Source of the DNA: Tetrahymena thermophila SB210
Taxonomy: Eukaryota; Ciliophora; Oligohymenophorea; Hymenostomatida; Tetrahymenidae
NCBI RefSeq assembly: GCF_000189635.1
Contig: NW_002475926.1
Location: 124,001 to 188,000, forward strand
Direction of reading: 5' to 3'
Length of the DNA stretch: 64,000 nucleotides
Shown here: piece by piece, positions 10,105 through 62,200 of the stretch
Layout of the letters: each line of letters begins with the position of its first letter
How positions within the stretch are numbered: position 1 is the stretch's first letter
Position numbers and translations under genes: made by a program
The notes under the pieces: generated by a model
What the model saw: the letters and a program-made list of their open reading frames with translations, nothing else
The model's database searches: none
Told to the model about the DNA's origin: nothing

Positions 10105-12292
10105 TCAAAAAGCAAAAATAGTGTGCTTGCTTTCATCGTTAAAGTACTAAATGCTTAGTTTGTTATTTTTATTTCCAGAAGTTATGCAGACATTTAATAT
10201 ATTTGTTTCTTATTTGATCAACTATCCTAAACTCTTTACAAAAGAAGAGTCAATTTAATTGTAGCTAATTAATTAATATTTAAAAAAATATTAGATATAT
10301 TTTATAACCAAATTTAAATTGTTACTCAAGATTTAAAATTAAATTCTTTATAAAATATAGAGATTTTAGAGAATTGCCAATTGTTTAAATACATCTGGAA
10401 TCAAAAAAGTTATTTCTAGATTTTAAATAAAATATTAAAGTTATTTCAAATAAATCATTTTGTATTTTACTCTAATTTGACGCCAAGTTATTTTATTCTA
10501 TTCAATTTAGAAATCTAATTGAAAATAGAACTAATGTCTTCTGTTGTTAATGAACAGTTACTTGATTAAATAAACAAAATATTAATTTCCAACAAAAAAA
10601 AATAACAATTTACTTTAAATTTATATTTAAAAATTATATGTTTTAGCACCTTGATAAGCCCTCAAGCATAAATACGACTCCTTGATGAATGCTAACACTA
10701 TTCCTTTATTATAAATTTTATTTTTAGAATATATACCAATATTAAATTTTAAGTTACTGCAAGTTGATGCAAAGTTTGCTAAGATGCCATAATTTTTATA
10801 ATCCGCTTCCAATTATTTTTAAACAATCAGCATCTAAGTTATTTTAACTGTTAAATATTTTTGATTAGATAGACGATAAAAGAAATTTATTGTTTTACCC
10901 AATTTAGATCAGCATACTTTAAAGATTTTATATCTTTTGAATTGAACTTTAAAGTTAAGATATTCCTTCGAGTCCAATATTATTAGATCTATTTTTATAC
11001 ATATTTAAATTAAATGCTTTGAAAACAATAATCTGAATTTCTGATTGATTAAAATTAAAAGCTCTTCTCAATTTGAAAAATAAAAGATATTTAAAATTTA
11101 GAAAATATCTTGATTTCTAAATTAATATTTGTCTAAATAATTACTCTATTGACAAGGTTAAATCTTTGAGTTACTTCATGTTGGCCAAAAAGAGACCTAA
11201 TCTATTAGCTCCATTATCACTTAAAGAATTTTACCTATATTTGAGATAATTATTAGATATATTAATTAAAATTAATAGTTGATTTACCCTAAGAAAAGCT
11301 TTAAAGATATAATTCTGCTTTGAAAAGCTAAAGCTCTGCTTTATTACAAGCAATCTCCATTAATATTATTATTGCTTTAATTTGAAAAAGGTTAATAAAA
11401 TTTAATTTTTCTAAAAATTAGATTACAATAAATTCAGGCATAAATTTTCTATTTGATTAATTTATGCTAAGGGTTTTATAAGGAGCTCAATTACATCCCC
11501 ATCAATTTAATTAGAGCTAAATTTATTTAAAAGATAGAAATTTACTATATGTCAAGTTGAAAAATTAAAAAAATAATAAGCTATTAAGTATCATTTATTT
11601 AAAAAGAAAATGTTACCTGAAATTAATATCCAAACACCTCAGTTTTTAGTTACTGTTGATTCCTGATATTAGTTTCTTGATATGCTCAATCTTAATACTA
11701 CTATTTCTAATTAAATTTATAATTTTTGTAATCAAGTATAGAAGTCAATTCAATTTGTATTTTCCAAATAATTTTTTAATTAAATTTGAATCTTTGCCAA
11801 AAACAAAACAAAACAAATAAATTGAAATAAAGAAAAAAACTTACGTAATTTCAACAGAGAAATGGTTGAGAGCCAATAAACTTTTTAAATCCTTTTGGAT
11901 TTGTTCACAAAATTTGTTTGGATTCTTCAAATAACTTTTTAAAAATTATTTTTGTAAAAATGATATAGAATATGAAATTTACTTGAATTATATCTTTAGA
12001 GAGGTTAAATTTATGACCCACTTAAGTACTTCCATCAAATCTGCCAAGTTTTCATCAATATTGGAATCACTATATTAGTTGATTGTTAGCTATATTAACT
12101 ATTTAAAAATAAATATTTACTTAAAGTAAAGATTTATTGTCTCTAAGGAGCGACACTTTCTAATGTATTCAAATAAATATTCCATTTCATTAACAGTGAA
12201 TGAGCCAAATCCTCTATTGTTTTTATAAAAATATAGTTTTCAATAATTATCCAAACTCTCTGTTACAGTTTATGGAAAGGTATAAATTACAT
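10105..12292 (-). CDS. Leucine-rich-repeat protein, one repeat per phase-2 exon (LRR-A)
   Basis: Exons: 12292-12267, 12213-12121, 12069-11983, 11934-11845, 11706-11617, 11516-11427, 11374-11288, 11234-11145, 10988-10899, 10847-10758, 10703-10614, 10415-10326, 10264-10105 (TGA); 390 residues. Each internal exon (93, 87, 90, 90, 90, 87 and then five of 90 nt) encodes one about 30-residue repeat of ribonuclease-inhibitor-like pattern. Examples are 'SSNQIDGDVIELL', 'CLNLLF', 'GQNSLSDNGANRL', 'SNNIGLEGISQLQSS' and 'CQNIQFLNINLK'. Every intron is phase 2 and falls just after the LxLxL strand. Introns are 48-198 bp. The protein probably folds as an arc mediating protein binding; its partner is unknown. 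No kinase, F-box or NTPase domain is visible. The 5' end is uncertain: exon 1 (26 nt) is the only ATG-bearing solution I found, because an in-frame TGA lies at 12240-12242, just upstream of LRR-like sequence. Confidence 0.82.
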
Positions 12293-15200
12293 AAGAACTT
12301 TTTTAATAAATATAATATAAAAATAGAAAAAATTTTCTTTTATATGGCTTTGTTGTGATACTTAGTTTGATTATTTTGGTTAAAAAATATGTAAATAAAT
12401 TGATGACATAATATTTGTTATTGATGAAATTATTTTGTCTATAAAATTAAATAACTTTTGATTGCTTTATTTTTATCATCAATTAAATAATTCTCTATAC
12501 CATTCATTTGTATACAATAATATGAAAATTTATGATTTATTAAAATGCGCTAAGATTTTAGTTGATGAGTATTGAAGCAAAAATAATTAAAAATTATAGA
12601 AATGAAGCAATCTAGTAGATTTACATTGTGTTTAGAGTAAGCTATTTTATAGATGTATGGTTGTTTGTGTAAAAAGCTTAGCTTAAGTCCTATTTGCTGC
12701 TGATCAAGATATTCATTTTGAGATTATTTATTTATGTTTTGGTTTGGTGAAATCCTTAAAATAGTTATAAGTTTGATAGTTCGTAAAGGATTTGAAGTGG
12801 TGCTTTAGTAGAATAGGTGATGTACAAGGTATTGAGTTAGAAAAATTTTTAGTAGATGTTATGTTAAAAATTAAATTCAAGTTAAGCCTTTGTTTTTATT
12901 TAAAGCTAGGTAATGAAGATTATCTTAGCAATTATTAAGTTGTTAGTTTTTAGTAATTAAATTTTTTTTTGCAAAATTTTAATTATACAGTCTTTTAGTT
13001 TTCTGATTTAGAATTTATCTCTCTAAAGTGTTGTTTATTGAAATTTATTTATTTTTTGTTTAATTTTCAATTTTCAGAAAGTATCTCTTTGATCTATTAC
13101 TTGAAGTTATTTAATGATTATATTCTCATTAACATACAAGTTACTTCTCATTTATTTGCTTATAGCCGCTAGTAGGTGTAGAAATATTGATTTGAATTTT
13201 TTTTTTTACAGTTATTATTATCAGAAATTAGCAAAAAAGAATACCTTTTTGCAAAAATTCAATGAAATCAAATAATTTAAATAGTAATTTAATTTGTTTT
13301 ATTTTAAAATAAATTTTTTGTGTTTTTATAATTAGATAAGAGATAATTACTATTACCTTAAATTCTTTATAAAGAGTTAATTACTTTATTACTTGTGAAT
13401 TATATATTTTTATTCACTTTTACTAGTCTTTCCTTGTTTGTCTATTTTCTTTTTCTTTTATAAAAAACTCAAAATTTAAATTTTTGATATTTTAAAAACC
13501 TAGTTACTACTTACTTATCAAGATTGTTCTAAAAGCAAGTTATACTGCATTTATTTTTCTCATTAAAATATTGAAAACAATTTATTTAAAAATATTGCTT
13601 GTTTTTTCTACAAGCTTTCGCTATTCGCAAAAATATTATGTAGACTTTGTGAACTAATTGTTGAAAGTAAAAATTTTGTTTTTTTAAAGAGTTTGTTTTG
13701 TATTTGATTACATTTCTTTAATACATTTTGTAATAAAAAGCAATGTAAATTTTTTACTTATGTATTGTTTTTGAAATTAGATTTCAACTATCAAAAAAAA
13801 AAATATAATAATCTTACTACTTTTATTAAGCTTCTTTTCTATTCGTTATTGCTATAAGTAACAAATTATCTTGTAATTAACAAATATTTTGTGGATTTAA
13901 TTGAATTACTTTTTCTGATGAATTTACAAATAATTTGAAAACAAAGTAGTTTGATAATAATTGTTTACTATAGTTCTTATAAGTTATTCTATATGTGTTG
14001 CGTCATATTCATATTATGATAATCTTAAGGCAAATCATACTTATTGATAATAAATATTAATTTAGAAACCACTTTTTCATTCAAATTTTTTTTAATTGTA
14101 ATTTTGATACTATCACATACATCCATTTGTGTCTAAATCGTTCTAGCTATATTAACTATTTAAAATAAAATAAAAGTTTTAGTTTTCAATATATGAATTG
14201 CTGAATACCTGAATTACTATGATATGCTTTATCTATGATAAAATTTTACCAATAGTGAGCAAAAACGTATTAAATAGACTATTATAATTATATCAAAAAA
14301 ATCAAGAACTTTTTATTGTGAAATAATACGTAATTTTTTACACTTAATTAATAAATTTATAATTTTTTAATGAACAAGCTAAATAAATAATACTTGAATT
14401 AATTTTATTTTTGCATACAAAAATATCTTTTTATAAATTAATAAAATAAAGTGCTCTATTTTAATCTTTTTTCATTAATCTTCAATATAGTCCAAAAAAA
14501 AAATACTTTTTGATAAATATAGTTTTTGTAAAGTTTTGCATCAATTAATGAAAATTTTTAGATGATATTGAAGAATATTAAATTTATTTTTATAGTCATT
14601 ATTCTTTAATACATCTTAAAATAAATAAAAAATCAGAATTTTTAAGCTTTTCTGGTATTTTAGTAAATACAGAATATTTTATATTTAGATAATAAAAGTA
14701 AAAATGTAAACAATAATTTATAAAATATCATTTTTATTGTAATTGGAACAAAATCTTAAAGAATCAAATTCAAATATTTTTTAAATAGCTAATTTCTAGT
14801 AAAAATCAAAAATTTGTTTCTGTTCTATTGTTTTGAAAATAATTTAATATGAAAAATGTAATTAAAGCAATCTTAATTTATAAGAGTAATTAATATAAGA
14901 AAATCAAATAATAATTATTATTTTTTAATTTTTAAATTTAAATAAAATAACTAGATTACAAGTAATATTTATCACTAAAGAAAAAATAAATTTAAACGAC
15001 AAATAATTTATATTTAAATATTATTTTAAAATACTTATCTAAAATAAATTATCTAGATTTATTGTAACTTACTTATTTTTGGTTGATCATATTTTCATGT
15101 AAAAGAAAATTGTAAATAGTTTCTAAAATGATAAAAAAGTTAATTTATTTAACAGAAAAAAATTCATAAATTTATTTAATAGCAATAAGTGATAAACTAT

Positions 15201-30171: not shown

Positions 30172-31119
30172 TAAATTAATTTATTTTTAAATGTTAAATA
30201 TATCATTTTTAAATGTTTTTTGCTTAAGTTTAAATTTAATTATTTATTTTTAAAAAGATATGTTCCTTCCTTCCAATTAATTTTTTTCAAACATAAGAAA
30301 TAATGATAACTTAAATAAAAATTTTATTTTTCAATTACAAATATTTTTTTAAAAATAACTATTCTAAATTCTTAAATTAATAATCGAAAATTAGTATTCT
30401 TATATTAAATTTAAAAAAATTAAAAATAAAAGGTTGATTAGTTTAAAATATCTTTATTATTTTTAAAAATACCTTATTTTTTTTAATTTTTATTTGATTT
30501 CAATTTAAAAATAAACAATAATATAAAATATTTATTGAATAAGATTTATGTTTTTAGAAGTTTTTTATCAGAATACTAGCTAAATTATTTAGAATTAGAT
30601 AGACTAAAATAAAGTATGAAAATAAAAAATTTGGCTCTGCTAAAATGAATTACTTTAAATTCAGTAAAAGTGATTGTTGGTTCTAACAAATTTTTATATA
30701 TAAAATAAAGACAAAAATATTAAAGATTACTTTTTTTTTACATTTAGAACTATTTGATTTTTATTTTTTCTAGCAAAAATAGAAGAATAATTTGATTGTT
30801 ATTTTTTATGATCAATAAATTACTAATCAAAATTTATATTTTTATAGAACTAATTGATATTTAGTTTATATTTATATTAAATTAAATTTATCATTGATAG
30901 AATTCAACAATTTTTTTTTTTTACGTCTTTAAATTATTACGATGCATTACGTCTTAAAGTTCTATTACTAATGATGATTACCAGCTTTCAGCTAATTTAT
31001 TTTTAATATAAATCAGCATATTAAATAAAAATTTTACCATTATTAAAAATCCAGCTAGATTGTAATTATATTATTCAAAGAATATTATAAAAATCAAAAT
31101 TTTTGGGAAAAAAAAAATC
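30172..31119. other. Spacer between tandem DGAT2 genes
   Basis: AT-rich sequence; no duplicated coding remnant is seen. The last few hundred bases presumably carry the promoter of copy 2. Confidence 0.55.
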
Positions 31120-32130
31120 ATGACTAACAATACCTCAGAAACAACAATTACTTCAAGCTAAGTTGAAGCTTAAAGTGTTTGCTCATCACCAGAATAAGTT
31201 AAACCAAATCAAGCAAAATTGATTACAGTAACACCTAAGGATAGAGAAATCCGTCCATGGAGATCAATTTTCGGAGGAGCTTTTATGATGACATATCTTA
31301 CTACTCCTTTTATTATGTGTTATATTTATTTCAAAGCAGTTTAAGGTGATGTTTTATGCATTACTCTCTCCATTATTTAAATAATTGCTCAAATTTATGC
31401 TAAACGCTGGGATGCTTGGTGCAGATTACTTAATTATTTAGATATGGATCTTTACTTTGATGAATTTGGATTGCATTTCGAAGAAGAACTTGCAAAAGAA
31501 AAAGTTCTACTAGGAATCCATCCCCATAACGTTGTTACTCTTGGAATGACTTTAAATTAATTTAAAGGTAGATTTGGTAAATAAAACATTTGTGCTAGCA
31601 GAGTACTTTTATACATGCCACTTTTAGGAATGCTTCATAAATTTAGCGGAATAGTACCAGTCGATGCTTAAAATCTTAAAAAGTTAATGTCAGCAAATAG
31701 AAATTTAAGTATAGTACCTGGAGGATTTGAAGAAGCTACTATCTCATCAAGTACAAAAGACAAAGTATTCATTAAAAATCGTAAGGGTTTTATTAAATTT
31801 GCTCTCCGTTATGGATATAACGTGCATCCTGTTTTCATCTTTGGTGAAAATAAAATGTTTGAGTATTTTGAAAAATTTGAAGAATTCAGATTGCTTATGA
31901 ACAAAGTTAAGCTTGTTGGTCTTATTTTCTGGTCTAGATTAGGTCTACTTCCAGAGCCTCGTCTTAAAGTTAACACTGTTGTAGGTAAAGCTATTAAGCT
32001 TCCATAGATCGCAGAGCCTACTGCATAAGACGTTGATAAATATCACACTATTTACATTGAAGAGCTTCAAAGAATCTTCAATGAAAACAAGATTAAATTT
32101 GGTGACAACCATGACTTAATAATATACTGA
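31120..32130 (+). CDS. DGAT2-family acyltransferase with variant HPHN motif (copy 2)
   Basis: A single exon of 336 residues, TGA stop. It is a paralogue of the upstream gene with an extra Ser/Thr/Gln-rich N-terminus of about 35 residues before IRPWRSIFGG. It has a hydrophobic hairpin (about 55-90), LVPGGFEEA-type IVPGGFEEA, RKGFIKFALRYGYNVHPVFI with FGEN, and VVGKAI near the end. The catalytic motif reads GIHPHNVVTLG: His-Pro-His-Asn at 134-137 in place of the near-invariant HPHG. All other family blocks are intact and there is no frameshift. The gene is therefore probably expressed, but may have altered activity or substrate choice. Copy 1 keeps HPHG. Confidence 0.92.
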
Positions 32131-33068: not shown

Positions 33069-35024
33069 TCACAATTTTAACTTAAAATTAATTAAATATT
33101 TTCCTTTGTAAATTCTTTATGCTATTTTTGAGTAATCTTAGTTTAACTAGCAGGCACTAAATATTAAAAAATTAAGAATAGAATTTTATGAAAAGTAAAT
33201 TACTTCATTTTTAGTTTCAAATTTAAAAGTCTTTTTATTTTTGAAATATATTTGCTAAGTAAAACAGCTCCATTTAAACTAATTTAATTTGATCTTTTTT
33301 TTATTTATTATTTAACATTACATTTTCATCTTTTTATTTGCAAAATAAATTTTACGAAAATTATAATTTTAGGCTAACCAAGCTCTAAATTTTTGAAATA
33401 TCAACTCCAAACTGCCCTAAACCTTAGTCTTTTATGCCACAATCTCTTATTAAAAAATTAAAATATGTAATTAGGATTTTTTTAATTTAAAATTTACCTA
33501 AAATTTAAATTAAGGTGCATTAAAGAGTTCATTTTTATTATGGAAGATGTTATTTGTAATAATCCAGAATCAGAAATTTAATTCATTCTTGATTTTAATT
33601 AAGTTAAATTAAAATAGTAAAAATATTTTTTATTTACTCTAAGTTAAAATATAAATTTGTTAAATTTTAGCATTTAAAAAGTTTTTCTCCAATTTTTGAA
33701 ATGCCTTCTTAAGTAATTGAATTACTACTAATTTATTTTTCAATTAATTTTAATATTTAATTTATTATTTATTTTTTTACCTAAGATATAAAGATAAATT
33801 AGATAAATTATTTATACCATATAGGTGTTATAACACTTTATATCCACCATCATCTCCTAGTTTATTCCATCTAATTTAAAATTTTATTTACTTTACATTT
33901 GGTATACAAATTTTTAAGACATTTAGTAGATTTCATTTCAATTTAAATTTATTTAAATATTTTGAAAAAATCTTATTTTATTTTGAAATATGTTTGTTAG
34001 CTTCTCTTAAAAATATTTTTTTTTTCTTATTTAATTAGTATTTTACCCGATATCTAAATAAAGAAAGCTTAGCTTTTTCAAGGTTAGAAATAAATTTCCA
34101 ATATTTTGAGACCCTTTAGGACCGATTTTATTTTTACTTTTTTGAATTATAAGATATATTCGATTATATTTAAATTAAAAATATTACTATATGTAAAAGG
34201 TTAAACTTTCTAAGTTCGTTAACAAGCTAATCTACTTGCTAAAATTATTTATTCCTTCTTCTGAAATCAAATTATATCTAATAATTAAAACTAAATTCAG
34301 GTTGAACAGTTATGAAAATAATTTTATACGACATATCAAGTGTTAGGAATTTAAGCTATTATAAGGAAGAGACACAGCTTCCGAGAATAGAGCAGCCTAA
34401 ATCTTTTAAGTCGTTTTGGCTTTTATTAAATAAAATACTTAGAATGGTTTAAAAAGAAAATCTTACCTTAGCTATAGATTTAAGTTTTATAGGTTTTGGC
34501 ACTTCGAAATATATTACAACAACGATTTCATTTTTTCCACTCCAATTTTGTTTCCACTTCATATAAGAAAGTAGAATTTTATAAAAATTATTTCAAATTT
34601 AAAATAGAAAAATTAATTGTACTATAGATAAATTTCTAAAGCGTTGAGGAAATTTAGTTATGATATCCTTTATCCGAGTTAGCTATAGTTCTCAATATCT
34701 ATATTAGTTAAGCTTGAATAAGGGTAATTTTATTATCCAAATCATCCAGTATATTTACCTTAAATTTAATTTTATGCTCTTAATGTTTACACATTTTTAA
34801 ATGCAAAGAGTTATTTATTAAGCTGTCTCGTTGCCATCAAAACTGTAACTAAATTAAATTAAATTAAAAATACTTTTGATTTTAATAACTATCTACTCAG
34901 AATTTGCTTCAAAATGACTAATCGAATCACAGTTATTAAGTAGAATTATCTATTAAAAAAATAAATTTAAAAGAATAAAAAGTTAAATTTTAAACGTAAC
35001 CTCTTCCATAGATAGGCTTTTCAT
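33069..35024 (-). CDS. Leucine-rich-repeat protein with eleven consecutive 90-nt phase-2 exons (LRR-B)
   Basis: Exons: 35024-35001, 34949-34897, 34848-34759, 34712-34623, 34556-34467, 34419-34330, 34277-34188, 34136-34047, 33870-33781, 33727-33638, 33587-33498, 33445-33356, 33293-33204, 33156-33069 (TGA); 384 residues. No ORF longer than about 60 codons exists here in the standard code, and short exons hide the gene. Exons 3-13 are each exactly 90 nt, start with one base of a split codon after AG and end with two bases before GT. Each holds one repeat. Examples: 'GNKIGVEKMKSLLQYISKC', 'QNLQNLNLQL', 'YNLISEEGINNFSKQIS', 'SNSITQEGISKIGEKLF', 'CQNLTNLYFNLE', 'NQISDSGLLQITSSIIK'. The N-terminus MKSLSMEE is followed by IILLNNCDSISHFE. 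No other domain is seen. It is similar to LRR-A in length and plan, suggesting common ancestry, and is likely a protein-binding scaffold of unknown role. Confidence 0.85.
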
Positions 35025-53112: not shown

Positions 53113-53764
53113 AAATGCAATTAATTCTCTCTTAATCACAAATGAATTACTTATCAGCTCTGTCTGTATTATAATTAAGTAAATTTTAATATATTTAATA
53201 TGTAAAGAATAAGTTTAATAAATTTTATGTAAAGCTATTAATAGATGTTTGTTTGTATTATATCAAAAAAAATCAATTAATATCAAAATATTAATTTTTT
53301 ACTTTAACTTACTTCTTGCTAGTCCAGAAAGAATTTGTATCTTTTATCAAAACTAAAATATTTTATTTTATACTATAAAAATTAGAAATATTTATCTTTA
53401 AAAATACATCAATTATTAATCAATTTAAATTATTTTGTATTACTTAATTGTTTTTTAAATATCTGGCTGACTGGCAAATTTTTTACTTTTTTAAATATAT
53501 GAAATTCATTTAAATTTAAGTTATAAATATTTATTTATATGTGAATCTTTGCTGAAATTCATATAAGGAATACATTAAAAAAATATATATATAATCTAAC
53601 TAGTATTTAAATAAATAAATTATTACTAGATAGATCTTTAACATTAAAGTGCTTTTTATTTTAAGTAGGAGAGAATATATATTTAGCTGCTGTTCTTAGC
53701 TGTACAAACAGTATACAAATAAAAAATTTGCAAGCAAGCATAGGAAAGGGATATATTTTTATAA
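53113..53764. other. Intergenic spacer upstream of CFAP47
   Basis: AT-rich; presumed 5' flank of CFAP47. Nothing specific is seen. Confidence 0.5.
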
Positions 53765-56158
53765 ATGAAAGCATCATAATTTTCAACTTTAAAACGAGCT
53801 AATTCAGCAAAAATTAACATTTTAGAGCCATTAAGATAAGATGAAAAAAATATAGCAAATTAGATGCAAGTTTAGTAGAATAACTTTATGAAAACAGGTT
53901 TTAGTTATAAATAATAATAATAAAGAACTTCTACTTCATAATCATAAAGGACTAAATTATTACCTCGCCATAATAGCGCAGTGACAGTCCTTTCTAAGAA
54001 TTTACCTCCTGTATTAAATTTTAAGAATATAGTTAATATCAATAATGCTGAACCAATTTAAGTAGTACCTACAGAAATAATCTTTAAAGAAATTAAGCAA
54101 AATTAGACATATGAGACCTTTGTCATAATATAGAGTTTAAGCAAGCAATTAAATAGAATTAAAATTATTTAGCCAACTACAGTGCGCTTTAGAGTGGACT
54201 ATGACTAGTAGGGTAAAATCGCTGCAGGTCTCTCTATGAAACTGCTAGTTACATTCGAAACTAATATACTTGATGATTATCATGATAAATTTATCGTATA
54301 ATATTAAAATGAAGGGTAATTAAAAAGCATAGAAGTACCATTGCACGCCTTACGTCCACAAGCATAAATTTTGTTTGAGCCATTTATAAATTATGGATTT
54401 ATTAAAATATTTGAAAATAATGTAAAAACGATTATGTTCAAAAATGAAGGTAAAATGGCAGGAAAAGTACGTTTAAAATATGACAGTATGCCAGAAATAA
54501 GTTGCGATCCTTCAAATTTTACTATTTAGCCTGGATAGGAATTACCTGTTAAAGTAAATTTAAAGTAATAATTTTATAAAGCATTTAGATTTGTTTTTGG
54601 GAATACGTAAATAGAAAAAATATAACTGGCCTAGAAATAGAAACATAACTTTATTAATATTTTAAATATAAAATTATTTAGTTATGCAATTTAGGCAATT
54701 TTTAATATTATTTTGTATTTTAAAGCTCGAAAGAAAGTGGCATCTTTAGAGGAAAGATAGAAGTTATTAATGAAGGATAGAGTTTATTAAAATATATTGA
54801 TGTAAATGCAACACCAGTTGAATTCAATAAATTCTTAATTGATGATTAAGGAAACTCAACCTCTACTTTTGATTTTGAAGAAACTTATTTTGGAGAAAAG
54901 AAGGTCATAAAAGGTTTTCTAGTGAATAACACTCCTCATGAATAAAAGTTTAAAGTTAATATGAGGATCGGATTTCACTCTAACTCAGTAAATTTACTTT
55001 ATGAACTGAATTTTTAGTTAATTAAATTATTTTAAGGATGAAAAAGTTACATTACAAACTCCTATTGAAGTTGGTATGGAATAAACAGAATAAATAATGA
55101 AGTGTATGCCAGAAAGAGGAATTGTCAAAGCCTATTCTTAGGTAATTAAATAATAAATAAATAAATAAATAAATAATTTGTTTTCATAAATTTTCTTAAT
55201 TATATAGATTCCGATTCAATTTATATGTCACAGCAAAGTTAAATATGAACATCAGATCATTACAAAGAATTATGCTCTTTCTGATTAAGAACTTGTTAAA
55301 AGAAAAGAATCTGAAGAAGATTACACATATTCTGCTATTTTTGAGTTTGATGGGCCAGATAAAAAAGAAGATATTCTTCCAATTACATTAATAGGACGTG
55401 GTCTTTGTCCTAAAATTAAAATTAATAAAGCTCTTTTAAATTTTGGAGAGTGTTAGGCTCATGACCATAGAGAAGCAATGTTTTTAGTTGAAAATAAGCA
55501 TAATTTGATGCCAGTGGATATTAAAATACCTAGAATTCCTTGCTTTTCAGTTGATCCTATAGGAGCTACAATCAGCCCTGGGGTGAAGTCTTCTTTTATT
55601 GCTACATTTTAACCAAGCACAGTTGGAAAATATAAAACTAATATTTATGTTACATTGATTAATGATCAATACAAAATTCCTATTTAGGTGATTGGTGAGT
55701 CCAATAATTTCTTAGACTCTAAATTGTAAATATAAATTCACAAAAAAAATAATTATTTAATAATAACATTTTTATAAAAGCCCCAAAACAAGAGGTCCTG
55801 AGAGTCTGCCTCAAGATTTTAAATTATAATCTAATTTTATTGATGATCAAAATCCCACTAAAACCCTCATAGGAGCAACATCAAAAAATAAAGGCATGAA
55901 TGAGTCTAGTAGTATAATTACAATGCCTAAAGGAATAGATGAAATGGAGATTAATTTTGACAAGTTAGAAGAGATAAAGACAATAAAAGAAAATAAATAA
56001 AAATATGTTGAGATGCTTAGGGATAATCGCTAATCGAGAGTTCTTAAAGAAAAAGAAAAAATAGTAAAGCTTAGATTAGATTAGATGGAGGCAAAACTTA
56101 AAGAAAAAGGATTGACCCTCTTTCAAGACTAAAATGATGATGATAATGAAGAAAAAGG

Positions 56159-56201
<43 letters not shown>

Positions 56202-59200
56202 TTCATTTTATAATATTATATGGAAGTCTTAATACTAACTAAATTATTTAATAGATCCTAGAAAAACAGTACCTTTAGATGTTGAGTTTGAGTTAGGAAT
56301 GATGGAGACTAAAGTTTTTCCTCCTAACGAAATGCTTTCTACTCAAAAAGATCCTTTATTTGTTTCTAAACCAATAGGTAAATATGAACCTATGAGAGAT
56401 GAATAAGCTCGATTCTTCAACCCCGATCCTAATATTCCTATGAGAAAGTAAACCAAAATTGTATTATTAAACAATAATTTTCAAAAATATAATAAAAAAT
56501 TAGACCATTTCCTGAGGTTGCAAAAACTCACAAAGAGATAAGAGATGTCAGAATGGAATTAACTGGTGAGATGCTTCAAAAAATTAGCATTGGTCCTAAG
56601 ATAATTGATTTTGGTCCAGTCTATGTTGAAAGCAAAGTGGTAAAAAGATTTTGTGTAAAAAATGACCTAAGATCTTCAATTAAAGTCCAGCTTACTGCTA
56701 CTGCACCTGAGCTAGCTGGAACATACTAAAAACCTTAAATTATACCTTCAAGCGATACTGCACGTTTCGATGTGGAGCTTTACAGCACTAATTTAAATGA
56801 TAATTATACTTAGACAATAAAATATACTATAAATGATCGTCACTAATTTGAATTCTAAGTGAAAGCCAAAATTGAAAAGGTCAAACTCGAATTAAGTAAG
56901 ACTTAAATAAAGTTTTAGTTTGCTGATGATAGCACAAATATGGAAACTTTCGAAACTTTGCAAATTAAAAATAATGGTAATGCTGAAGGGCACTACAAAT
57001 GGGATACTAGTAGTAAGGTATTTATCGTACATCCCCCTTCTGGTGTCGTCCCACCAAATGGTGGAGTAGTTGATACGGTAATTACCTACAGACCTTCACC
57101 ATTAAGCACTCTTAAAGAAAATTAACAAGGTATTCTTAATTATTTATTTGAATTAACTAAAATGAGATTTTATATTGCATTAAGGTGGTATGAGATAAGA
57201 GTCTGATAAGCTGGTCATACACGTTACAAATGGTATAGAATAGAGTGTTAAGTGCGAAGGTTTTGTTAATGAAGCTAAATGCATTATAAGATAGCAATCA
57301 ATAGAACTTGGTTAACTTATAGTGAGCAAAGAAGAAACTAGAGTTTTCCAAATTAAAAACACTTCAAGAATACCTGCAGTTTTTAGGGTTTTAACAGAAA
57401 AGTTACCTGAAAATTGTATTGTAACTCCTGTAATTGGGAAAATATAACCTGATGGGCAAATCGAATGCTCAGTTAAATATAGCTGCAGAGAAGAGAGAGA
57501 TATAAAAACCGAAATTTAAGTACTTATAAGGGGAGGAAAGATATTAAAATTACCTTTTAGTGTTCAGACTGTTATTCCGAATGTTTTAATTAAAGAAGAT
57601 GTATTTAACTTTGGCTAACTGACTAAAGGTAATCTAAAATTATTTTAGTATTAATGAAAATTCTATTAAAATCTAAATTTAGTTTTGAAATAGCTAATTA
57701 TACTTTTATTTGATTAAGAAAAATAAATGTTCATTTAATATCAAAAATAGATAACGCTGGTCATTTAGAAATGAGTTTAGTAAATAAGTCAGAAATCCCA
57801 GCTGAATTGATTTTAGATATGAGAACTGAAGAAGAAAATCCTGATTGCCCAGATGGAATAGGCTGTTTACAAATAACCCCGCTAGATGAAGGTAAATTGA
57901 AAAACGAAAAATAAAAAACAAAAATTTAATTTAATATAAATATTAGGAGATGAAAGTATCCTTAAAAGTGTTCACTAGGATTTTATTGATGAAGAAGATG
58001 AAGAAAAGAGAAATGAAAACAGCGATATGGATTTAGATCCAGACGAATAAAGCATATAATCAGATGAAAGCTTACTTTAAGCATCACCTAATAAAAAATA
58101 CAATATAACAATAAAGCCTAATTAAACACTTAGATTTTAGCTAACATTTACACCAAATGATGCAAAACCTTACAACTTTGAATTACCAATAACTCTAGCT
58201 AGATTTGGAGCTCTCCCTGGCTTGATTAGAAATATTATTTGTAGAGGTATTAAATCTCAATTTCTAGTTTAACCTTAAAATATAGAGTTTCCTAGAAAGA
58301 TAATTACTACTTCAGATAAAGATTATCCAGAAAATTTTGAAGTTACATTTTCTAATCCAGAAAGAAAAGCTGTAACATGGAGGATAGACGATTCTCCTTT
58401 TGATAAAGTGAAAAAGCTATTCTCTATTCATCCAACATACGTAAGATTTAGTTAGATTTTGTTAGACTTGAAAAAATAATTTATTTAAATATTAAAGGGA
58501 AGGATAGAGCCAGGATAGAACTAAATTATCAAAGCTTCTTTTGATCCAAAAGAACCAGGAGAATATGAAGAAGTAATTTGTCTATATTTGGATGGTGATG
58601 ATGGTCCATCAACTACTCCTGTTCATAAAATTTAAGTAAAAGGTGTTGCTGCTTTTCCTAAACTCATGTTTGATAGAAGAGAAGTGCTTCTTCCTGTTGT
58701 TCCTCTTGGAATAGAATCTAAATGCATCTTCAGAATAATAAACGATGGATATGAAAATCTTAAAATAAAACATTAAGTACTCGAAGAATTAGGAAATATC
58801 AAAGTAGATTGCAGATTCCCTGAAGGAAAGAATCTAAATGTTAGCAAAAATAAAGTAAAAAATTAATTTTTAAATGTTTTTTAACTAAAATATTTATTCA
58901 ATAGCTTAAAGTAGAGGTTTATTTTTCATCTAAAAAACCAATATCTTTTACTACTCATATTGAATTTAAGGATGATAAGAATAAGGGGTATATTATACCA
59001 GTTAGTGGTACTACTGATAATAGTTTACTAACTATCTTTCCTTATATGCAGCGCTGCAAAGGCGAATATAAAACAGAAATAGATGCAAATAAAAATACTA
59101 TTATGTTGTTAGAAGAAGATGCTCAAGATGACTAGTCTGATATTACAACAAATAACAATATTTCTAACATAAAGAAAAAATATTCAGCTTCAGTTGCTTC

Positions 59201-62200
59201 TGCTAAAACCCATTCTTCGAGAGCATCTATTAGAAGTACAAGGAGTGCCTTAGGCTACAGTCCAGTTCCTAAAGAAATGCTTGAGCACTCTAAAGATCAA
59301 ATAAAAAATTGGCTGAATTTTACTGTGTTATAAAATAATATATAAAACTTTCCAGACAGCATTGTTGAAGAAAGTGGTGAATAGTTGTACGAACTTTTAC
59401 AATTTTTAGTGGGGTCAAAGAGTCCTCTAATGGAAACAAAAGCAGTATTTGAAGGAGCTTTAAACAGAACAGAGAGATCTCTATTGCTTTACTAGCAATA
59501 TGATTCTTTAATTAGATTGTTGAAATAGGATGGAGCTTTGCTGAATCATGTACGCCCTTAATTTTTACTAGGCTACAATGAATATCATGCTTACATAAAA
59601 ACACTCTCAAAAGATGATGTTCAAACCATCCATCCAAATGGATTGAAAATATCTTCACATAGATACACTTACTTTTAATCAGATGCTTGGATAACTCTAT
59701 TTTATCAGATCATTAAAATTTATTATTTATCTCGTATTTCAATTAAAAATTTAAAAACTATTCCAAATATACATCCTGATAAAGCTGTGATACCCGATTG
59801 CTATTTGAACGGAAGTAATATTTATAGCTAGTTTGAGGGAGTTCTTTTACGCTGGCTAGAGCTCAACCACGAAATAATAAATCCACACTAACCACTTCGT
59901 ATTACATCATTTGATAAGGAGCTAGCAAGCGGTCATTTAATTGCAAATTTGATAAAAAATTATGTTGGAAATGAAGCCACAGCATTTGTAAATTTTAATA
60001 TTTTTTTATAATACTTTTTTTTAAAAATTTAAAAATAAAATTTAGTTATCTCAAATGAAACCTGTAACAAACACTGACGATGAAAATTTCTATAATTGTG
60101 ATAAAGTTCATCATGCTCTTTAGGATATAAATTTATAAACCCCTTTCAATGCTGTTGATCTTTCAAAAGCTTCATAGAGGGAGACTGTTTTGTTCTTAAT
60201 TTAATTGTTCAATTCTCTGCCAAATTACATTCCAAAAGGTCAACCGATTATTTTTTCCTGTGTTTTAGGAGAGGAAGTTACAAAAACCATAGAATTAACA
60301 AACCCTTCAAATAAAACTATACATTATTGGGTGAAAAGAACAGGTTGCACTGATTTTTAGATTGAGACAAACGAAGCCGATACAATAAAGTTAGATCCAA
60401 AATCTATTTACAAGTTTAAAGTTAAATTTGTTTCTAGAGTATCATAACCAGTATATGGAAGAATAAGATTTACAAATAGAAGGGAGTCAAATGTTGCAGC
60501 TGCTGCTTTAGTTTTTGACTTCAAGTCAAATATAACTGGCAGAGTTTCATCCAAAGTAATTGATATTGATTGCCCACTTTATCAAAAGAAAGAGTTTACA
60601 GTTAAGGTAGAGAATAAATTCTTAACTCATAGCCATGGCGAGTTCAGTGTAAATATTGTTCATGAGTTTGAGACTAAGGAAAAAAAAGATACAGAACCAA
60701 ATGTAAAATCTAAAGACAAGAATGCAAAATAAAATTAAAAGAAAACTCAAAAACCTGATGAATTAGTTCCTCTCGAAACGCTTAATGCAGTTCCTTGCTT
60801 TTTCTTAAAACAGGCAGATACAATGGTTATTAAAAAAAATAATTTTTCTCACTTGAATCTTGTTTTTATACCAATGCTATATGAAACTTAAAAGTGCTAT
60901 ATAATATTTTCTGATCCTACAGTAGGAGAGTTTCAATATGAAATAATAGGAGCTGTGACTTTGCCTGAAGAAGTTATATAGATTCCAGAAACTCCTATAT
61001 AGCCTCCTATTTACGTAGAAGAGTAGAGAAATTGGCCTATAAAAATCCCTTTTAAAAATGAAGCCATGAGAGAAGCAAGGAAAAATGTTGAGTATTATAT
61101 GAGTTTGAAAAAGAAAAAAGATTTTGATCCAAAGAAATACACACTCCCGAATATATCACCTGATATAATCAATTTTTATGTTGATATCGAATAGCCTCAC
61201 CAAAATATTGTAACTACTTCAAAAACTATTTTGTTAGAGAATCCAATTCGTGCAAGTAAAAGAAAGTAAGAAGCATCTAAGTTAGACCAGTCATTTGATA
61301 GTAAAAGAATGGATGGGCTTTCTATGATAAGCAGTATAGCTCCAACAAACGCTTAAAAATCCTAATTAGTGAACGAAACACTGTGTAAATACTTCTTTCT
61401 TTTAATTTCATTCAATTTATAGTTTTAAATATATTTTTAATTAAATAAAATAGAGGAAGTTGAAGGAGTTGAAAAAAATAGCATGTACCTAAATTTCAAT
61501 TTCAAAGTTCCTATCAAGGAATACACAGCTAATATAACTTTAAGGAATCCTGAAAAATATGATATAAGAAGATATAAATTAGTTGTGACCAGTCTTCCAA
61601 AACCAGTAAAAGCCGCCTTAGAGTTCACAGCAGCTGCTAAAGAAACTGTAGTGTAGGAGATTCCTATTGTCAATACAACAGAAAAAGATTGGATGATTAA
61701 AATAAATTTAATACCAAATGAAGAAATGAATGGCCGATGCTTTTTTGTAGGAAGTAAAATCAAATTTGATTGATTGTAAATTATGTGTCTTATTTGTTTT
61801 AATTTTATTAACAGATAAAGCAGCTTTAACTGCAGGAGAGCAAACAGGAAAAAGTTAGATGAGTAGTAACTCAAATCAAAACGTACAACAAATACAAAGC
61901 ATAAGAGATATACTAGTTAAGAAAAAAGGAACAGTCAATATCCCAGTTCAATTTACTCCATTATGGGTTTGCTAAGCTGAAGCTAAATTAATCATGACAA
62001 ATCCTGTTACGAACGATGTATTTGAATATGAGTTAAAAGGCATTGGAGAAGAGCCACTAGCTATTGATCATTTAGTAATAAATTGTCAAGCTAGACAAAC
62101 TACAAAATAAGAGCTGGTCATAAAAAATCCAAATGCAGATAGATCAGTAACTTATGAAGTAGAAACGGATTTAGTAGGAGCATCAGGCCCTTCATAACTA

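Follow-up and report, generated by a model that had tools for sequence, protein, structure and literature searches.

Is a ciliate gene in which every leucine-rich repeat (LRR) has its own exon, all of these exons being of one length and one phase, part of an undescribed modular system, and does splicing vary the number of its repeats? In vertebrates, the RNH1 and NLRP genes carry in-phase LRR exons, usually with two repeats per exon. A sequence-only reading of Tetrahymena thermophila DNA had described a gene with one LRR per exon and all exons symmetric, and had suggested that it would be an independent system for making proteins of variable repeat number. We examined this gene, at 33069-35024 on the minus strand of a 64-kb window (the whole stretch of 64,000 nucleotides analysed here, with a GC content of 23.6%), which is part of a 101.0-Mb assembly in 445 contigs.

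Structure of the gene

Between 32.5 and 36 kb we found 12 sites of the form AG-N90-GT. Eleven of them make up an array of predicted exons of exactly 90 nt that spans 34848-33204 on the minus strand; the twelfth (33411-33322) was left out because it overlaps an array exon and is absent from the list of sites that match all six positions of the pattern given below. In the order of transcription, the 90-nt LRR exons lie at 34759-34848, 34623-34712, 34467-34556, 34330-34419, 34188-34277, 34047-34136, 33781-33870, 33638-33727, 33498-33587, 33356-33445, and 33204-33293, all on the minus strand. All eleven are phase 2 on both sides, with one base left over 5' of the whole codons and two 3' of them, and all eleven are open under the ciliate code, in which TAA and TAG specify glutamine. 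One exon is one leucine-rich repeat of 30 residues. Among its 29 whole codons, residues 12, 16, 22, 25, 27, and 29 are hydrophobic in every exon of the array; these six positions, which we took from the leucine codons reported in PMC6564038, are often but not always leucine. The consensus of 20 exons of the window is xNxIxxxGxxxxxxxIxxxxxLxxLxLxL, and in this gene every repeat is cut at the same point, just after the LxLxL strand. The exon number, length, phase, and cut point proposed in the sequence-only reading, as well as its one symmetric exon per repeat, are thus all found in the sequence, and the end points that it gave, 33069 and 35024, are the TGA and the ATG of our gene model.

The ten introns within the array measure 46, 66, 47, 52, 51, 176, 53, 50, 52, and 62 nt; that is, nine fall between 46 and 66 nt and one is much longer. 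Because the length of eight of the ten is not a multiple of three, the frame stays open only once these introns are removed. The acceptors of the eleven exons are AAG in seven cases and TAG in four. Aligning the exons with each other, as had been suggested for this locus, gave a mean DNA identity of 42% and a maximum of 52%. The 176-nt intron (33871-34046, minus strand) contains no convincing lost exon. Its best candidate for a lost twelfth exon, 33982-33893, matches five of the six pattern positions with no AG ahead of it, and is no better than chance: open frames with at least five of six positions occur at 115 of 1340 background positions, five of them followed by GT.

The gene model runs from the ATG at 35024 to the TGA at 33069, comprises 1155 coding nt with the stop codon counted, and predicts 384 residues. 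A putative first exon (35001-35024, minus strand, encoding MKSLSMEE), which begins with the start codon and whose 3' boundary is uncertain, is followed by a 51-nt intron (35000-34950), a putative second exon of 53 nt (34897-34949), and a 48-nt intron (34896-34849), all on the same strand. Both introns are multiples of three without a TGA, so that the N-terminal part can also be read without introns, for 1254 nt of coding sequence. Since the frame could be read through the 48-nt intron as well as the 51-nt one, the first exon of the array has the least certain 5' boundary, and the other ten predicted exons have firmer boundaries. At the 3' end, a terminal exon of 88 nt including the TGA (33069-33156, minus strand) encodes a twelfth repeat, and the stop codon falls at about the expected end of that repeat.

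A second gene and other genes of the window

A second LRR gene of the same class lies at 10108-12716 on the minus strand; nine of its phase-2 exons measure exactly 90 nt, and one repeat exon is shorter. The 90-nt exons are at 11934-11845, 11706-11617, 11516-11427, 11234-11145, 10988-10899, 10847-10758, 10703-10614, 10560-10471, and 10415-10326, and the shorter repeat exon, counted by eye at 87 nt, is at 11374-11288, all on the minus strand. A protein search with the nine joined exons returned one match, Tetrahymena utriculariae ABPG72_002222, at 77% identity over the full query. The nine exons begin on that protein at residues 92, 122, 152, 211, 241, 271, 301, 331, and 361. Per exon, 23 to 27 of the 29 residues are identical, and the step of 59 from 152 to 211 corresponds to one 30-residue repeat plus the shorter exon. 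Because the alignment proceeds in 30-residue steps, the deposited model of ABPG72_002222 agrees with our splice sites, including three with AAG acceptors. Within the aligned part, the two species have the same number of repeats.

Adjoining the eleven-exon gene is a diacylglycerol acyltransferase gene (30898-32127, plus strand), which is 56% identical to its T. malaccensis counterpart and 93% identical to T. utriculariae ABPG72_002215, and from the latter match the neighborhood seems conserved. Elsewhere in the window, the open frames at 53471-54922 and 57901-59313 on the plus strand encode Ig-like domains of the HYDIN/CFAP65/DLEC1/CFAP74 type and probably belong to a ciliary protein gene.

Tests against chance and decay

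In AT-rich DNA, AG and GT might fall 90 nt apart by chance, and lone open sites of this form are indeed common: regardless of the pattern, the two strands of the window hold 70 and 86 of them. Sites that match all six positions are another matter. The window has 22 on the minus strand and one on the plus strand, while 20 first-order Markov copies of the minus strand averaged 0.6 such sites and never had more than 2. Eleven of the 23 sites belong to the gene at 33069-35024, nine to the second gene, and three (two on the minus strand) are isolated, so that 20 of the 22 minus-strand sites stand in two ordered clusters. The eleven-exon array is well above chance; the Markov control already refutes a chance alignment, whose probability we regard as negligible.

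We also considered that the gene might be a once working array that is now decaying. The 176-nt intron, the AAG at seven of 11 acceptors, and the failure of our protein search to find a close T. utriculariae relative of this gene all point in that direction, and a T. utriculariae relative was found for both of the other window genes that we searched, the acyltransferase and the second LRR gene. Against decay, the eleven joined exons contain no TGA in the 329 codons of the coding frame and six and seven in the other two frames; a coding frame equally free of TGA arose in three of 2000 mononucleotide shuffles of the joined exons. Nor are AAG acceptors peculiar to this gene: they occur at five of 12 exons in another array of the genome (L014), at three of nine in the conserved second gene, and at each of the exons that we read in the long-intron arrays L070 and L075-L080. 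We therefore consider decay very unlikely.

Membership of a known class

Xiong et al. 2019 (PMC6564038) report thousands of Tetrahymena genes with arrays of 90-bp phase-2 LRR exons across ten species. In their account, some 72,000 exons are exactly 90 bp, more than 96% with phase-2 introns at both ends, and the spacing of the leucine codons is the spacing seen here. Two groups are relevant to our gene. In group II, the older one, introns are about 56 bp long, near the genome background, and intragenic repeats at the DNA level are lacking; group III has introns of about 257 bp in T. thermophila and recent DNA-level repeats (PMC6564038). With group II the gene at 33069-35024 shares a tandem array of exons that are all exactly 90 bp long and bounded on either side by phase-2 introns, the leucine spacing, introns near 56 bp, and little DNA-level similarity among its exons. 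With group III, which has look-alikes in this genome such as L080, it shares exon length and phase; it differs in its introns, mostly of 46-66 nt, in its mean exon identity of 42%, and in having few and short DNA matches in the genome. We conclude, with a probability of about 0.93, that the gene is a member of the known 90-bp-exon class, most like the older group II. The gene resembles group II in its short introns and low exon-to-exon identity, on which this placing rests, whereas the published separation of groups II and III is a formal one, by masking with the repeat consensus sequences CRS1-8 (PMC6564038). The idea that the locus reveals an undescribed system does not hold, because the class had already been published.

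As the cause of these arrays, Xiong et al. propose germline exon shuffling and unequal crossing over, possibly with REP retrotransposons, and they suggest that the proteins may recognize bacteria or sense the environment (PMC6564038).

Other arrays in the genome

Searches with LRR families and with the spliced protein matched many loci in the genome. Both were six-frame searches, which favor uninterrupted arrays, and several of their best matches are runs of this kind of repeat without introns. The counts given here describe the loci that these searches found, not frequencies. The further runs of 90-nt phase-2 LRR exons that the sequence-only reading called for do exist: in addition to the second gene of the window, we found 12 exons of 90 nt in L014 (introns of 47-61 nt plus two longer ones), at least ten in the overlapping loci L070 and L075, eight each in L074 and L078, and ten in L080 (introns of 231-258 nt). 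In ten loci, mostly picked for matching arrays and partly overlapping, 65 distinct six-of-six sites have a length of 90 nt, and no other length from 75 to 108 has more than seven. For 38 loci picked by Pfam LRR family alone, short stretches of about 2-3 kb of which some overlap, we counted 15 sites of 90 nt and no more than nine of any other length from 60 to 132; all 15 sites lie in two loci, and the other 36 have no six-of-six 90-nt exon. Among 27 loci picked by similarity to the spliced protein (30, minus three from the gene at 33069-35024 itself), there is no clear peak at 90 nt (seven sites versus up to 13 at other lengths).

At the DNA level, the gene at 33069-35024 has ten matches in the genome including itself, few and short. 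We read three of the nine non-self matches, of which L070 lies in a true array. L071 and L072 were rejected as arrays, being AT-rich sequence only, with one isolated five-of-six site in L072. Querying with DNA of the long-intron array L070 gave at least 90 scored matches (868 candidates at first look, 40 of them scored), and L014, the array with 12 exons, used in the same way, matched itself and another array, L074. The same kind of 30-residue repeat also occurs without introns: the LRR arrays L039, L043, L047, and L054 each form one open frame and are 26-34% identical to the window protein. By our reading of its sequence, L047 has a kinase-like region upstream of the repeats.

Two side observations concern the long-intron arrays. 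At L070/L075, L076, L078, L079, and L080, the acceptor is AAG at every 90-nt exon read, while L014, L074, and both window genes mix AAG with TAG; the young arrays may have spread from a unit of which the all-AAG set is a mark. In addition, 29 of the 90 scored matches of L070 start less than 12.5 kb from the first base of a contig, in ten of 32 contigs (C6, C37, C141, C190, C216, C262, C333, C357, C373, and C440). This is in keeping with the published subtelomeric bias of young arrays, and is not proof of it.

Homologs, domain, and predicted fold

A protein search with the gene at 33069-35024 returned three proteins in all, the best, with 29% identity, being a 'kinase domain protein' of T. thermophila. 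In Pfam, up to E = 1, its one hit was LRR_6 (38.5 bits, cut-off 23.4), and no NACHT domain was found. Sequence matches in the PDB include LRR proteins of the ciliary doublet microtubule and rabbit NOD2.

As a proxy for the fold, we used the T. thermophila relative P0001 (29% identical), whose structure was predicted from one sequence without an alignment. The prediction is a strand-helix solenoid with a mean pLDDT of 67 and a pTM of 0.71. In the repeat region, 11 of the 14 strands checked end within three residues of the end of an exon pattern, and near the other three the pattern is not fully matched. The 50 structural matches listed for P0001 include chains of ribonuclease inhibitor (TM-score by query length 0.49-0.59) and also NLRP chains. 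Judged from this relative, the gene is like RNH1 and NLRP in a ribonuclease-inhibitor-type LRR fold. It also has LRR exons that are in phase, as they do. It differs from both in having one LRR per exon instead of two, and from NLRP, in which a NACHT domain is combined with C-terminal LRRs, in that Pfam finds no NACHT. Our search of the open-licence literature turned up no paper on the organization of LRR exons in other organisms.

Does splicing vary the repeat number?

Symmetric exons could let one gene make proteins with differing numbers of repeats through alternative splicing, and the arithmetic allows it, as the sequence-only reading had pointed out: with all eleven exons 90 nt long and phase 2-2, any of them can be skipped without a frameshift. 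There is also a published indication. In a comparison of 65 eukaryotes, T. thermophila was the only non-animal with an animal-like bias of skipped exons toward keeping the frame (p = 2.18e-5), a bias that is reported without explanation in section 6 of that paper (PMC6142364). Several observations speak against such a use of this gene. Cassette exons make up 139 of 1,474 alternative splicing events in T. thermophila, versus 832 intron retentions, an excess that the authors read as intron definition (PMC3274533). Cassette exons in that species are flanked by the longest class of introns, averaging 279 bp (PMC3274533), compared with 46-66 nt for nine of the ten array introns. The number of repeats in the second gene is, in the aligned part, equal in two species. 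We therefore judge it highly improbable that this gene uses splicing to vary its repeats: skipping would be possible, but introns near 50 nt argue against it and make it unlikely. In the main text of the paper that describes the class, the term 'alternative splicing' does not occur (PMC6564038).

The young arrays may be a different case. The introns that flank cassette exons, at 279 bp on average, are similar in length to those of the young LRR class, which peak at 257 bp. A doubtful, though conceivable, explanation of the frame-keeping bias of T. thermophila is that 90-nt LRR exons, chiefly those of young long-intron arrays, are skipped and cause it. If so, the number of LRRs would vary in mRNA as well as between genes, and the short-intron gene at 33069-35024 would be little affected. 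A dull alternative would be false skipping junctions, produced when reads are mis-mapped among near-identical exons. We found no related paper on exon skipping and LRRs in Tetrahymena in the open-licence literature, and the link may still have been published.

Returning to the gene as a member of the 90-bp-exon class, we propose the following. Its short introns would be removed constitutively, one by one, to give a predicted product of about 384 residues that may fold into a ribonuclease-inhibitor-like solenoid. Each exon would supply one strand-helix turn, with the intron placed in the loop after the strand. Over evolution, the repeat number would shift by unequal crossing over of intron-exon units in the germline nucleus, as may be inferred from PMC6564038, because adding or removing a whole unit leaves the frame intact. 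Most likely, the putative LRR protein is a scaffold to which other proteins bind.

Conclusions

The gene at 33069-35024 enlarges by one a class in which nature offers a striking case of exon shuffling. Within one genome, the same kind of 30-residue repeat is found in short-intron, long-intron, and intronless arrays, and their co-occurrence is useful for tracing how the intron-exon unit arose. Symmetric LRR exons may, moreover, explain the published exon-skipping anomaly of T. thermophila.
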